Assembly: GCA_030295235.1 (NCBI GenBank)
Contig: AP026126.1
Span: 124,001 to 188,000 of the forward strand
DNA: 64,000 nucleotides
Source: Fistulifera solaris
Taxonomy: Eukaryota > Bacillariophyta > Bacillariophyceae > Naviculales > Stauroneidaceae
Reading direction: 5' to 3'
The position numbers and the translations under genes are program-made. Positions within the stretch are counted from its first letter, which is position 1. Every line of letters starts with the position of its first letter. The notes under the pieces were generated by a model. The model worked only from the letters and a program-made list of their open reading frames with translations. It made no database searches and had not been told where the DNA came from. This document shows, in pieces, positions 57,041-64,000 of this stretch.

Positions 57041-58875
57041 CTAAACAACAAACCCGTATGCGGGGCGAATCTGCGTACTCATATCTGGAAACACACTCGT
57101 CCACGATTCAACCATTTCCCGGGTAAGAGAGGGGTGCTGTGTTTCAACAACTGCCGGCGAATCCGCCCAGCATACTATTAGCGTATTCACCGCTCCCTTT
57201 ATCACATTCATCATCACAGATGACACCCACAACCCAATAATGAGCCCGATCCTTTTAAGTCGAAAACAACCGTTTAGAATTCAACATACACTTTAACTAG
57301 CCAGACCTTAGAAGCTAGGTACTTACCCAAACGTTGCATACTTGTTCAGGCCGAGATAAGAAGGACCAGAGTCGGCGGAATGATTTGTGTCATGATATCG
57401 ACTCGAGACAAGTTGCTCCACCAACATTGCCACAATCCCAGTAAGAACGCCCACGAAAACAGTCGATGCGTTTAATACATATACCACCAAGTTATCCGTG
57501 ATAATCGTTGTCCATCCCCGAGCATGGAAGAGCTCTAACACTCTTCGACCACTTTCTAAGTATGAAAACCCATATATTCCCACAAACACATACGCCCACT
57601 GGTTGAAATAGTTCAAAATATCTTCAAAAAGTCTCGCCAAGCACTCGAGTACGCACAAATAGATGGACCCACAAAAGAATCCTCGGCATTATCTCGCTGG
57701 TTTCGAGCGCTCTCGACAAGGCAGCGGAACACACTAACAATTGCTTGAAGAAGTGACCCGAAACAGATGGACCCGAAAGCGTAGGTCAGAGATCGGAAGA
57801 GCGACCCGAAAACAGCAGAACTGCAGCAATTGCTTGCTTCGTCTTTATCAAAGCACCACGTAGCCATAACTCCAGCTACTGTCACTTGAATTGTGTTCTG
57901 GAAAACGTGTTAGCAAAGATAAGCGAGCAAAATTACGGATGATAGGTTGTCTCTCAAGAATCTTACCATGACGACAGTGCTAGTCCAGTACAGAGACAAT
58001 AAGAAGAGAAAGAAAGCCAGAGATGACGGATCACATGTATCGTCATAGTCATCGGCTGTAATATCGTCAAAGTCTGCCCCCGGATGAGCTACTTGACAAT
58101 TTTGGGTTTGATAGGAAAATACACCTACCACGGTGTAAAACCAAAACACCAACCAAATCAGACCCAATTGTGTAATGAAGCAAGCAACAATGTAGATTCC
58201 CCAATTTTGGCTCATCCCTCTGAGCGCAATTTTTAGATTCACTGCTGCAAACGGCACCATCCGCCAGGCTAAACGAACGTAGTACGTCACCGCCAACATC
58301 GCGACAAACAGCATAAAGGATAAAGCCAGCGACTTGCTCGTGATGATGGAAATGAGTAACAGTACGGCTGATGTGGCAAATGACCCGATCAAGCATCCGT
58401 AAACAACGGTCAGCGGAAAAGGCCGAAGGATAAAGAAAGTTGTTCCAAGAGCGATGACAAACGCAACGAAGCAGCCTGGAACAACCGAATAATGGAGGAT
58501 TCGAGATGGATAAATGTGCATATATTCTGTTGCTTGCTTCACAAACTCTTCGAATTTTTGAATATCTTCTTCCTTGATACCATCATCCCCCTTTCGCATC
58601 TCCTCCTCGAGCGGGGCGAAATCGAACTTCATATCTGCATAGCCACGAGGTGCTACCGAAAGGCCCAGGTAAAGCATCACAGCAATATGGAGCCAAAATA
58701 ATACGCCAAAGAACATATCTTGGAATTGGGGTGGCGAGGGTGCGCTGGCTTCCAGCATGGAGACATGCTCATCAGCTGCATCGATCGTGACAACCGGAAC
58801 TGCGCCGTAACTCGTCATATTCGCCGAAGAAATTACTAAGGGAGGATTTACTTCATCGTCAACTTTGTGATTCAT
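57041..58875 (-). CDS. Choline-transporter-like protein (SLC44/CTL family)
   Basis: ATG 58875 starts exon 1, which has about seven transmembrane helices (first: MFFGVLFWLHIAVMLYLGL) and a large acidic lumenal loop. Intron 57898-57966 (69 bp, donor GTAAGA) leads to exon 2 (NTIQVTVAGVMATWCFDKDE). This includes the family signature near ARLFEDILNYFNQWAYVFVG and SYLESGRRVLELFHARGWTT. One base appears missing near 57655 at the join of two frames. Intron 57252-57326 (75 bp, donor GTAAGT) leads to exon 3, which ends in the last helices (GLIIGLWVSSVMMNVIKGAV). The total of about 570 residues is typical of CTL proteins, which move choline or ethanolamine. Plant and algal members act at the Golgi and plasma membrane; the location here is not visible. 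Confidence 0.9.
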
Positions 58876-59200
58876 TCTTTAGCAAGGGCTGTGGGGAGAA
58901 TAAAACGCCGTTTTCAAAAGAAATGAACGGAGCTTTTTAAAGATTTCATTCGTGAAACGTCATGGTTGCGTTTCATGATGTCGATGTCAAACCAACGTTT
59001 CGTCATGCCCTACCGGTACCCGTTTCGCAATTCCCATCTACGCACTATGCACATAAAACCAAGGAAATCATCATCGCGTCTCATAAGGAATAGATAAATG
59101 ATTTACATTCTTCGTTATGATGGTCAATAGTCGAAAAGCACTCGCATGGTATGGTCACCTTGGCTGACAGCTGAATTGATTGGGCTCGAAAAGTAAATTC
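58876..59200. other. Intergenic
   Basis: No coding feature recognised between two minus-strand genes. Confidence 0.5.
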
Positions 59201-60394
59201 TTATAGAAGAAAAGCGAACAACCAACTGAAAGACAAGACGGTTCCCCAAACGAAGCTCCCTTTATCAGCTGCACTCGACAATACCGAGTCAACCGCTGTT
59301 GGACTGTTGTTACTCGAGGGAGAATTGGTGCTGGTGGACTCGGAAACTGGAGCTGGTGTAGGTAAGGATACAGGAACGGGTGGATTTGTCGGTGCGACGA
59401 ACGGCATGTTTTGAAAGGACAGCCATTGTTGCTCACAAGCGAATTGCGTGGCTGTTTCACTCAAGCATGCAGGTTCATCGGATTCATCAGTGGTCAAAGT
59501 GTTTCCAGAATCTTGCCATTCTCGTACAGACGGTCCTTCGTATAAGTGACTCGCAAAACCGTGCGACCGGAGAACGACGATGGCATTCGCAGCCGATTCA
59601 CCATAAACGACTACCGAACAGCGGAAGCACGGCTCGAAGGATGCTAGCTTTTCTTCTACATTATCGAAGGAAAGAGGACCAACGAGTGTAGCACCGGATA
59701 TGTGTCCTCCCGAAAAGTCTTAATTGCAGTGATCAGATGCGAATGTTGTTTTCCAGAATGCAGAACTGTAGGGCCACTTACCTTCCCGTACGTCCAAAAG
59801 GACACCGACGTCTCCATTTTCTTTAATTCGCATGAGTTGCTCCGCACTCAAGCGACGGGATTCATCAAGCCGACCATAAGTCGGAGAGAGCGACATTGCA
59901 GCTGTTGGCGATGGTGACGGTAAAGCAGGCGTAGTAGGAGCAGGCACACCAGAACAAGCGATAGACTCTACTCCCGTGCATGGTGGAATCACAGAGTCTG
60001 TACCCTCTTCCATCACAAATTGCTGCGACTTCCACGCATCGATTCCTCCTTCGAAAAGATAGAGATTGGTAAATCCAGCTTCCGTAAGAAACTCGAGGGC
60101 AACTCTTGATCGTGCACCGTTGCTGTCATAGACCACGATCGGACAGCTCTCGCATCCAGATAGATCTGCAGGCGTGGCAACTTGAGCAGCATTACCAAGT
60201 GACGCCAAATTTTCTAGAAGCGTACTATTAGGAATGTGCCCGTTCTCGTATTCCCGACTGGTACGAACATCCACTAGGATGTTATAACGACCATCGTTGA
60301 CTCCATCGGCAAACTCTTGGAGCGACAAGTCGACAAAAGTGGCACTAACGCATTGCAGCAGCAAGAAAAGTGACGAAAGGGCATTTCGGAGCAT
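59201..60394 (-). CDS. Secreted tandem rhodanese-like protein, paralogue 1
   Basis: The true start is ATG 60394 (MLRNALSSLFLLLQCVSA), a signal peptide; an upstream GTG is not used. Two rhodanese-like domains follow. The first has ILVDVRTSREYENGHIPNS, then CESCPIVVYDSNGARSRVAL, where the usual active-site Cys is Asp. An intron at 59719-59781 (63 bp) splits the Asp codon of DVREG-D in the second domain. That domain resumes as SGGHISGATLVGPLS, with CFRCSVVVYGESAANA, where the Cys is Gly. Each domain has a C-x-x-C just before the loop and, after it, a P-x-C pair. The C terminus is Ser/Thr/Pro-rich and ends in a hydrophobic tail (GTVLSFSWLFAFLL), so it is probably GPI-anchored. The shared layout with 61163-62301 shows a head-to-head paralogue pair. 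Confidence 0.88.
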
Positions 60395-61162
60395 TGTTAG
60401 CTGCGTTTTCTTCACTTTCACGAGTCAATGGGTCGAACAACCGATGATGATTGTTTGGAGGCAACAATGGATTCGACCGTTTGGAAGGATGACGGCTGGT
60501 GTGCAGTTTTGTCATTTCAAGCTTTGCATTTATTGGCTACCTCATCAACACATACTAATTATCCCACTCTCTGAACGTTTTGATTTTGGCGTATGGAAGA
60601 AAAAAGAATCATCCAAAGGACCGTCGATGTTGACTCTATGTTCTGAAAGTAGCGCGCATTCTTTATTTGGTGACCGTTGCACGATAATGGAAGAAGAACG
60701 TTCTAGTATCAAAAACAAGTGCACGAGTTAGTACGATATTCAAAAACACAAATTCAAAATCTGACCCTTAAGTGGAAAACAAATTTATGTACACATCATC
60801 ACACAGTGACTACGCCGAGTGCCGCGTGCCGCGTGCTGAACGAAGAATAAGTGCGCGACAGAGAAGACCACTCCTAAATCGTTAAGTACTATAGACAAGA
60901 CAACCTATTTATAGAACAAAAATGGCGCTTCAACGGAAATTAATCTTACGATTGATTAAGCAGGTCCCTGCACAGCTTGTTTCCTTTATATGATAAACGA
61001 TGTGCTTGTATGATACAAATTCTGCCACCAACCACGCCGACACAAGACAAAACACGATGCGAGACTTTTTTATGTCAGTCCAGTCGCTTTGCATTTTGAC
61101 CCCCAAAAGACCAAATTATCGATACAACTGTTTATCATTATTGCTGAAGAGTGTCCGCAAAA
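60395..61162. promoter_or_regulatory. Shared divergent promoter region of the rhodanese-like pair
   Basis: The 768 bp between the two start codons has no coding frame with character. Since both genes start outward from it, it must contain both promoters; no specific element could be identified. A short GC-rich repeat (GCCGCGTGCCGCGTGC) lies near 60821-60836. Confidence 0.45.
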
Positions 61163-62301
61163 ATGAAGCTTTTAATTACATCTCTTCTGCCTTTGGCGCA
61201 TGCCGTAGTCACGGAGCTCTCCACGCAGCAATTGTTCGAAGGAATTCAAGAGAACAAATTTCAAGTGATTGTAGATGTTCGGAGTCAAGCCGAGTTCGAT
61301 GCAGGCCACATAGAAGGAGCAACTTTACTCGAGAACTTGTTTTATTTTGGCATGGGAAGTTTAGAATCTGCTACACCAGCCGATCTAGAGGGTTGTGAGA
61401 TGTGCCATATTGCGGTGTATGACCGATCTGGTGGTCGTACTATCAAGGCCATCGAAATACTGGAAGAAGCAGGTTTCGTGAACTTGTACAATGGGCAGGG
61501 AACAAGTCAATGGATGTCTGCTGGATATTCGTTGGTTACAGACGAGAGCGTTTTACCCCCTTGTACCACAGACCCGGCCGCTCAGGAACAGTGTAGCGCG
61601 CTGGAAGAAGCTCCCACAACATCACCAACCGTAAATGATCCTACCGCTATTCGTTCACTGGATGCCGCACAATTTGTTCAACTGCGCAATCAGGGCATGT
61701 TTGATGTTATTTTAGATGTTCGAGAAGGTAGGTTGCGATTTTAGTTTCCGCTGGCGTCCATCGAATCTCGCTGATTTTGTTTTATTTAGATACATCTGGA
61801 GGGCATATTACAGGCGCAACTTTGATTGGACCTTTATCTGAAGACATTTTATCGGATTTGGAGGGATGTGTTTATTGCAACATCGCGATCTATGGTGGAG
61901 GCGCCGAGGACGCAGCAGATTTGTTAGTCGAAAATGGCTTCGGTGGTCGTTTGTATTTTGGACCGAGTGTAGAGGAGTACTCTGATGCTGGGTTTGACCC
62001 AAGCACTGCAGAATCAGTCGAACCTCGTTGTACAACGGATACTGTCATCCAGGAAGCTTGCGAAGCGAGATGGATAGAGGATGGTGGAGATTCAGGAGAA
62101 TCTAGTGGTTCGGAACCGCCATCGGCACCCACTCCATCATCTTCAAAAGAACCTAAGCCCTCTCCAGCAAAAGAGCCTACCGAAGAGATCCCCCCAAAGA
62201 CAAACTCTACCGCTGCTCCGACGGCCCCTACTAGTGATGTTCAGTACATTACTGCGATGTTCTCTTGCTTCGTGGGCTTATTGATAATTGTGCTCCTGTA
62301 A
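61163..62301 (+). CDS. Secreted tandem rhodanese-like protein, paralogue 2
   Basis: ATG 61163 begins a signal peptide (MKLLITSLLPLAHAVV). The first rhodanese-like domain has VIVDVRSQAEFDAGHIEGA and then CEMCHIAVYDRSGGRT, with Asp in place of the catalytic Cys. It is followed by PPCTTDPAAQEQC. An intron at 61728-61789 (62 bp) splits the codon of Asp in DVREG-D, the same place and phase as in paralogue 1. The second domain continues as TSGGHITGATLIGPLS, CVYCNIAIYGGGAED (Gly in place of Cys) and PRCTTDTVIQEAC. A Pro/Ser/Glu-rich linker leads to a hydrophobic C terminus (AMFSCFVGLLIIVLL), consistent with GPI anchoring. Sulfurtransferase activity is unlikely. Confidence 0.9.
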
Positions 62302-62645
62302 AGCTACTACAATATCGCATAAAAATATGTTTATCTCGAACATTGTAGCGTCATCCATTGGCGTACGTTACCCTATATGAGACTGCTGCATAGCTCTAAT
62401 GGGGGACCAGATAATGGTCTAATGTGTTCCGTTTGAGTTTTTGGCATAATGACCCATGTTCGTGTTCGCTACCGCCAGAGCTCATGACTATCCCTTTTTA
62501 GTACATGCAATCGTAATTCTGTGTCTCGAAGTGTCACATCAAAATCCATTGGAATTTTTTTTGGCCCCTTGCTTCCCATTATTGTCAAAAGAATAAACAA
62601 CGCGAAGACCTTTGATTGCAGCGTTCCTCTCATAATGAAACAAAG
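62302..62645. other. Intergenic
   Basis: Contains the end of the rhodanese-like gene and the promoter of the next; nothing else recognised. Confidence 0.5.
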
Positions 62646-64000
62646 ATGAGTTCAATCGAAGAAGCCCGTAAGGCCTTGAAGAAGAGAGATAAGCCCAACA
62701 AGAAAGAGGAAAAATGCACTCCTTTGATCAGTCCTCGAACGAAACGTCCTTCGTTCCTTCGTCGTGAAAGTAGTAAAGACCTCGACAAGCCGGTGGCGAC
62801 TGCCAAGCCCCCGGGCGTGAAGAAAATGATTCAGTCGAAAATTACCAGTTTTTCCGAAAAACCGAAGCAAGTGACGCCATCTCCAAAGAAGCGAAAGAGT
62901 TTGCTAAAGGCAGGTGTCAAATTGGCACCAGCTCCCGCTCTTGACAAGGAAAAGAACAAGAAGGAGACACAAAAGACAACGGGAAAGTCTGTTTGTAAAA
63001 TCAAAGCTTCGAAAATTACCATTAACGGCGAGATCAAAAAGTACATTGATACGTTGAAGCAATATCATGTGCTGGCGGATATCACGACGACACCTCGTGA
63101 CAACGATCTCGTCACAGCGATCATCCAAGCGACCTGTTGCGATCCTGCTGCGGGGTCGATTGTCTGTGATGCCGATCCTCGTCACATCAGTCCTTCTGTG
63201 CTGCTTGATTTCGGAGACGCGTTGCGCTACAATGTATACTTGACGAAGCTACAGCTTTCGCACATGGAGTTGGGCAATGCTTTTTTGAGTGCTGTAGCCG
63301 ATTCTTTGCCCAAAAATTATACCCTACAAAAATTGAACTTGAGTCACAATCAATTCACAAGCGACGCATTGGTAGAGTTCTGCTTGGGTATGAAGAAGAA
63401 CAAAGCATTGACGAGTGTCGATTTGCGGTATCAAAATTCGAAAATCTTTACGCATCACGAAAAGGACGTTTTAGAGGCGTTGTCGGAAAACAATTACATA
63501 CAGGAATTTCACGTCGAATTCTTAACTCCCAAGTGTGAAAAGGTTATCGAATACGTTTTAGATCGAAACCAGAAGAAAGAGAAGAAGTTTCTGTCGCGTG
63601 AGAAGAAGGTGCTCGAATTTTTGAAGAAAGAGAGTTCGGACGCACAAGCTGACGCGAAAGGATCAGAAGAAGAGCAGGAGATTTCTCGTGAGCTACGCGA
63701 ACACGAAACTGAGTACTTCTACGAACTCGAACAAATCGCAAAGAAGCATAAGGTTGATTTGACAACTGACAAGGAGAGTGTTTTTTCGAAACCAGGAAAC
63801 AGTACTTTTGCGTTTGTTGGTTCCCCCGCCGCAGAGGTTTTAAAATTTCCAGCAACGCCCATGACCGCCGACGGTGCTTTTCTAACCGCCGGCTTCATTG
63901 ACAACTTTCTCAAAACGGGAGACGATGGCGTGTTGATATTTGAGTTCACCAATCAGTTCAAGCTCTTTAAACGCTTTGGGACCGACGATCCTGCTCGATC
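62646..64000 (+). CDS. Basic protein with leucine-rich/tropomodulin-like region, truncated by window edge
   Basis: ATG 62646 opens a frame that stays open for 451 codons to the right edge. Residues about 1-120 are very basic and Ser/Pro-rich (RTKRPSFLRRESSKDLDKPV, KKMIQSKITSF), likely disordered. Residues about 160-280 form leucine-rich repeats: DALRYNVYLTKLQLSHMELG, NYTLQKLNLSHNQFTSDAL, NKALTSVDLRYQNS, NNYIQEFHVEFLTPKC, in the style of tropomodulin-type and RNI-type LRRs. A charged helix (KKEKKFLSREKKVLEFLKKE) follows, then YFYELEQIAKKHKVDL. The end of the protein is outside the window. The role is not determined; an actin-related or scaffold function would be inference only. No frame break is present. 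Confidence 0.7.
   Translation, partial: MSSIEEARKALKKRDKPNKKEEKCTPLISPRTKRPSFLRRESSKDLDKPVATAKPPGVKKMIQSKITSFSEKPKQVTPSPKKRKSLLKAGVKLAPAPALDKEKNKKETQKTTGKSVCKIKASKITINGEIKKYIDTLKQYHVLADITTTPRDNDLVTAIIQATCCDPAAGSIVCDADPRHISPSVLLDFGDALRYNVYLTKLQLSHMELGNAFLSAVADSLPKNYTLQKLNLSHNQFTSDALVEFCLGMKKNKALTSVDLRYQNSKIFTHHEKDVLEALSENNYIQEFHVEFLTPKCEKVIEYVLDRNQKKEKKFLSREKKVLEFLKKESSDAQADAKGSEEEQEISRELREHETEYFYELEQIAKKHKVDLTTDKESVFSKPGNSTFAFVGSPAAEVLKFPATPMTADGAFLTAGFIDNFLKTGDDGVLIFEFTNQFKLFKRFGTDDPAR

Follow-up and report, generated by a model that had tools for sequence, protein, structure and literature searches.

In a 64,000-nucleotide stretch of the genome of the diatom Fistulifera solaris (contig AP026126.1, positions 124,001 to 188,000; hereafter the window), two genes, here called A and B, lie head to head, each with two exons (Table 1). 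Their products share a common layout: the N-terminus is hydrophobic, and after it come two rhodanese modules, a stretch rich in Pro, Ser and Thr, and a hydrophobic tail. A protein search matched the product of gene A to FisN_11Lh275 of F. solaris at 100% over its whole length, and it is identical to P0015 among the family members described below. As the introns of A and B fall at the same place in the protein, directly after DVRE, the two appear to be paralogues derived from a single two-module gene. A second contig (C5) carries this divergent pair too, with its A copy at 90-91% protein identity, and this second pair fits the allodiploid genome that has been reported for F. solaris. The exons of A and B are open in both homoeologous copies, while two match rows of the C5 comparison count a stop. 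Neighbouring A and B in the window, with no evident link to them, are a choline-transporter-like membrane protein (57910-58878, minus strand; PF04515, 6.2e-11) and, at 62643-63998 on the plus strand, a protein whose leucine-rich-repeat stretch scores under the Pfam cut-off. A scan against Rfam gave no matches.

Table 1. Features of genes A and B, in window positions (hydropathy values in the last column)
Feature	Position	Strand	Basis and remarks
Gene A (FisN_11Lh275)	59201..60394	-	splice model, stop included; 376 aa
Gene A exon 1	60394..59782	-	splice model
Gene A intron, 63 bases	59781..59719	-	splice model
Gene A exon 2, including stop	59718..59201	-	splice model
Gene A hydrophobic N-terminus, residues 1-18, likely signal peptide	60341..60394	-	hydropathy 2.1
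A module 1 CxxC, C81-E-S-C84	60143..60154	-	sequence
A module 1 catalytic position, Asp for Cys (YDSNGARS)	60125..60127	-	sequence, alignment
A module 1 later Cys pair, C139 and C147 (P-P-C ... C)	59954..59980	-	sequence
A module 2 CxxC, C235-F-R-C238	59618..59629	-	sequence
A module 2 catalytic position, Gly, shortened loop	59600..59602	-	sequence, family profile
A module 2 later Cys pair, C289 and C299	59435..59467	-	sequence
Gene A hydrophobic C-terminal tail, residues 362-376, GPI-signal-like	59204..59248	-	hydropathy 2.3
Region between the start codons of A and B, 768 bases	60395..61162	.	divergent arrangement also on contig C5
Gene B	61163..62301	+	splice model, stop included; 358 aa; Pfam
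Gene B exon 1	61163..61727	+	splice model
Gene B intron, 62 bases	61728..61789	+	splice model
Gene B exon 2, including stop	61790..62301	+	splice model
Gene B hydrophobic N-terminus, residues 1-15, likely signal peptide	61163..61207	+	hydropathy 1.8
B module 1 CxxC, C78-E-M-C81	61394..61405	+	sequence
B module 1 catalytic position, Asp for Cys (YDRSGGRT)	61421..61423	+	sequence, alignment
B module 1 later Cys pair, C134 and C144	61562..61594	+	sequence
B module 2 CxxC, C215-V-Y-C218	61867..61878	+	sequence
B module 2 catalytic position, Gly, shortened loop	61894..61896	+	sequence, family profile
B module 2 later Cys pair, C269 and C279	62029..62061	+	sequence
Gene B hydrophobic C-terminal tail, residues 341-358, GPI-signal-like	62245..62298	+	hydropathy 3.1

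The Pfam Rhodanese profile (PF00581; cut-off 22.2 bits) matches A in two stretches at 84.9 bits (5.9e-24) and B in one stretch at 52.5 bits (7.4e-14). Because exon 2 of A by itself is below the reach of this profile, the second modules were tested with a family profile made from 37 modules, none of them an A- or B-type row, which recovers the second module of A at 1.2e-24 and that of B at 1.6e-24; among 200 shuffled controls a single one was listed, at E 6.9. The first-pass annotation had described a divergent pair with two rhodanese modules in each protein, and the gene models, the Pfam matches of A and B and the family profile for the second modules bear this out.

None of the four modules has the Cys that a sulfurtransferase requires at the catalytic position. 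Asp stands there in both first modules and Gly in both second ones, where the alignment column holds a gap and the Gly was found by direct reading of the sequence. In the first modules the active-site loop is full length apart from the exchange of Cys for Asp; that of the second modules is about three residues shorter than in the family profile, so that part of the loop has gone and not only the Cys. All four modules carry a four-Cys signature, composed of a CxxC before the active-site strand (CESC and CFRC in A, CEMC and CVYC in B) and two further cysteines after the domain. Both the missing catalytic Cys and this pattern of cysteines had been noted at first inspection, and both hold.

The family to which A and B belong was assembled from 39 proteins of three protein searches, with the addition of B and one C22 paralogue, giving 41 proteins and 44 modules. 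It was bounded by E-value: in the largest search, which scored the 7995 candidates with the most shared words, members extend down to 5.8e-38 and the next match stands at 1.2e-23. By this measure 4 of 14, 10 of 15 and 75 of 102 matches, 89 altogether, were left out as ordinary rhodaneses. A CxxC occurs in none of these 89 proteins, 80 of which show the catalytic C-x-x-G loop, and is likewise missing from the 10 bacterial outgroup rows and from six prokaryote loci; one outgroup row, P0057, does show Cys at both later columns. Seven stretches of viral contigs were examined and contained no relatives. The relatives that bear a species name are from F. solaris, together with one transcriptome row labelled Tiarina (P0046), the true source of which is unsure.

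Across the 44 modules, the columns of C85, C88 and C142 (numbering of P0001) are always Cys, and that of C152 is Cys in 42; in P0039 and P0040 the fourth Cys is displaced, lying 18-19 residues after the third. The later pair is spaced by anything from 5 residues (P0006) to 19 (P0039). Every module has a CxxC or, in two rows (P0051 and P0053), a CxxxC, although modules were found by a pattern needing one or the other, which cost the set no protein but would have passed over a module with neither. At the catalytic position there is Cys in 28 modules, Asp in 6, Ser in 6, Gly in 3 and Arg in 1; the residue of P0016-P0018 in the aligned column is Asp.

These counts correct a tempting story, in which the CxxC replaced the active site. 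According to the first-pass annotation, the catalytic Cys had been lost and the four-Cys pattern gained together, and a comparison of homologues had been chosen beforehand as the evidence that could overturn this. That comparison finds the catalytic Cys together with CxxC, both being present in 28 of 44 modules and in a single-domain F. solaris protein encoded on contigs C25 and C26, from which it follows that the four-Cys frame came first. A joint loss of the catalytic Cys and gain of the four-Cys pattern is rejected, as the same four cysteines are present in relatives whose catalytic Cys is intact.

A profile search of the 51.7 Mb genome returned at least 43 rhodanese matches, 10 of the four-Cys family and 33 others in 30 regions. 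Of these others, 29 were readable, one in each of 29 regions, and four were left out; the catalytic Cys is present in 29 of the 29 and a CxxC in none, which rules out that the motif arises by chance or is a habit of the genome at large. In the family itself, one of seven modules per sub-genome (in A, B, the C26 type and two C22-type genes) has kept the catalytic Cys. The C25/C26 protein (L004, L003) has a single domain, a hydrophobic start, four cysteines and an intact active-site loop, VYCSTGARA on C26 and LYCRTGARA on C25; with its intact active-site Cys, it is a putative natural active counterpart of A and B. On C21 and C22 (L027, L026), two neighbouring genes of the family have Ser at the catalytic position. 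The first of these loses its frame after AMIAA in the C21 copy and is open in the C22 copy, which points to either a broken homoeologue or an assembly error.

In a tree with the 10 bacterial rows as outgroup, the family makes up one side of a branch (100/99). At least four changes between the presence and absence of the catalytic Cys are needed on this tree, and the AU test rejects a single clade of all 16 Cys-less modules (p-AU 0.005). It does not reject a tree in which the first modules of A and B are sisters (p-AU 0.146), so these two may share one loss. The exact count of losses is uncertain, since many inner branches are weakly supported, with stars on just 19 of 51, and the tree includes some long rows. 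All 10 outgroup rows have the catalytic Cys, which makes loss and not gain the likely direction, and the Cys was probably lost more than once within the family, in D, G, S and R forms.

The loss of the catalytic residue and of part of the loop could signify that A and B are pseudogenes, or are drifting neutrally now that catalysis is gone. However, dN/dS between homoeologues is 0.12 and 0.10 for the first and second modules of A and 0.07 and 0.09 for those of B (for comparison, 0.04 for the intact paralogue and 0.05 for one Ser paralogue), indicating that the Cys-less modules are under purifying selection. The earlier proposal that the domains are kept by selection is upheld, and with exons open in both copies, neutral decay is scarcely credible. 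Another idea is that catalysis continues with the Asp, for instance as a hydrolase or phosphatase, since the loop of module 1 is otherwise intact (SNGARS in A, RSGGRT in B). We regard this as very unlikely, given that the loop of module 2 is shortened, that other losses within the family show Ser, Gly or Arg, and that the same Asp occupies the catalytic place in the N-terminal half of vertebrate rhodanese, which is inactive.

The ends of A, B and their relatives were judged by hydropathy alone. By this measure, a hydrophobic stretch occurs close to the N-terminus in 38 of 40 family proteins (a peak of P0046 at residue 62 is not counted) and a hydrophobic C-terminal tail in 25 of 40; among the other 15, P0016-P0018 appear to end at the intron. 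The tail is basic and not hydrophobic in the Ser- or Arg-type proteins P0037, P0041 and P0047-P0050, so that anchoring is not a feature of the whole family. A and B, on the character of their two ends, would be secreted and are probably anchored in the membrane. A conserved basic end, NVRRxxRVRG, is found in P0037, which is the first of the two neighbouring Ser-type genes on C22/C21, and in its relatives P0041 and P0047-P0050.

Structure models give a view of where the four cysteines may lie. For the intact relative P0001, the AlphaFold model (mean pLDDT 82) matches rhodanese structures in a Foldseek search and has the alpha/beta rhodanese fold. In it, C88 comes just before the strand formed by residues 89-94 and the catalytic C94 is the last residue of that strand, which places the CxxC and the active site at opposite ends; by ordinary strand geometry, some 15-20 Angstrom would separate them. 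In the C-terminal extension, C142 sits in a short helix (141-144) and C152 in another (146-158), with a mean pLDDT of 90 for residues 141-150, which hold C142, and of 72 for residues 151-160, which hold C152. From the alternation of strands and helices, the extension would be expected to emerge on the CxxC face. Module 1 of A has a pLDDT mostly of 91-97, falling to 69-76 in residues 61-80, and module 2 is modelled poorly (ten-residue means of 27-58); the strand argument rests on the relative P0001.

CxxC is a common redox motif. Its presence, or that of CxxxC, in 44 of 44 modules, 28 of which also have the catalytic Cys, might mean that the family is redox-active, the CxxC performing disulfide exchange at the cell surface or, in intact members, relaying a persulfide from the catalytic Cys. 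We consider this doubtful, because the full length of a six-residue strand separates the two sites in the P0001 model, the profile match is to Rhodanese only, modules that have lost the catalytic Cys retain the frame just as well, and two rows have CxxxC. The same placement in the model makes disulfide exchange, one of the roles offered in the first-pass annotation, unlikely at the active site. As for a thioredoxin fold, Pfam at E 0.1 gives Rhodanese only in A and B, and no title of this kind is among the best 50 of the 527 Foldseek matches of P0001. A metal site at the base of the domain, for zinc or a different metal, is in keeping with four conserved cysteines in two pairs and with very weak zinc-finger matches (MYND at 0.014 in P0001 and 0.011 in P0030, zf-UBP at 0.064 in P0030). 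These matches, however, are under the curated cut-offs, the spacing of the second pair, 5 to 19 residues, is unlike that of a knuckle, and the proteins look secreted, a setting in which disulfides are favoured; a metal site accordingly appears improbable.

The explanation that we favour, as a probable though by no means certain one, is an extracellular rhodanese family with structural disulfides, in which A and B would serve as non-catalytic surface modules. Its signature would be the four cysteines outside the active site, comprising the CxxC before the strand and two in the short C-terminal extension, and these most likely pair up in two structural disulfides, by which the extension would be held against the side of the domain that faces away from the active site. 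For a secreted protein with variable spacing of the second pair, two bracing disulfides are the simplest account, and among the roles offered in the first-pass annotation a structural disulfide on the cell surface is the one that stands, as the most likely. The ancestor was probably an active single-domain sulfurtransferase of the cell surface, like the C25/C26 protein. A and B would then descend from a tandem-domain form in which module 1 lost the catalytic Cys and module 2 lost part of the loop as well, and they may have been retained as modules without catalysis, probably with a binding role at the cell surface, as suggested by constraint in the absence of catalytic residues.

By profile, A and B belong to the rhodanese-like superfamily, as P0001 does by predicted fold; with no catalytic Cys, A and B fail the test for an active sulfurtransferase. 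They share the fold and sequence motifs of PF00581, to which their family adds the four conserved cysteines and the C-terminal extension, and from which A and B depart in having no catalytic Cys. PspE, which is periplasmic, and GlpE are small bacterial thiosulfate sulfurtransferases with a single rhodanese domain and a C-x-x-G-x-R loop, like the intact P0001. However, P0001 is far below the NCBIfam cut-offs for both, with 22.6 of 102 bits for PspE (NF007627/TIGR02981) and 30.6 of 102 for GlpE (NF001195); A reaches 39.2 of 102 bits for GlpE, and no PspE match is listed for it at E 0.01. Among solved structures, the top sequence match is 6mxv, from Francisella tularensis and described as a rhodanese-like family protein (1.1e-9 with A and 1.2e-16 with P0001), which is also the top fold match to P0001 (8.4e-8); two stretches are matched. 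Unlike A, this bacterial protein has Cys at the catalytic place in both aligned stretches and no CxxC ahead of it.

A precedent for a non-catalytic rhodanese domain that serves protein binding is found in TBC1D23, whose domain is reported to have no measured sulfurtransferase or phosphatase activity (PMC7274447). TBC1D23 differs from A and B in that, according to the same source, it is an intracellular trafficking protein with a TBC domain and keeps a buried Cys (PMC7274447). An algal rhodanese-like selenoprotein is mentioned in the portion consulted of another paper, where F. solaris appears only for another family (PMC7539508). No description of a secreted four-Cys rhodanese family was found, by title or abstract start, among the papers listed from the open-access literature searched.

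Rhodaneses are mostly regarded as sulfur enzymes of the cell interior or the periplasm. A family from eukaryotes that is apparently secreted, has a fixed four-Cys frame and has repeatedly lost the catalytic residue provides a natural series of active and dead forms, which allows one to ask what role this fold plays in the extracellular space. A more speculative extension, which we think unlikely to hold as a whole, is a surface system of enzyme and pseudoenzyme in this diatom lineage, in which the braced C25/C26 rhodanese would handle extracellular sulfane sulfur and the dead tandem proteins A and B would bind the same ligand, or that rhodanese itself, as sensors, decoys or regulators. Other architectures are also present among the relatives: P0030 is a tandem member that has kept both catalytic cysteines and has a DUF6174 domain behind them (3.7e-19), and in P0023, which has the catalytic Cys, a second cysteine-rich region comes after it, to which Pfam makes no assignment.
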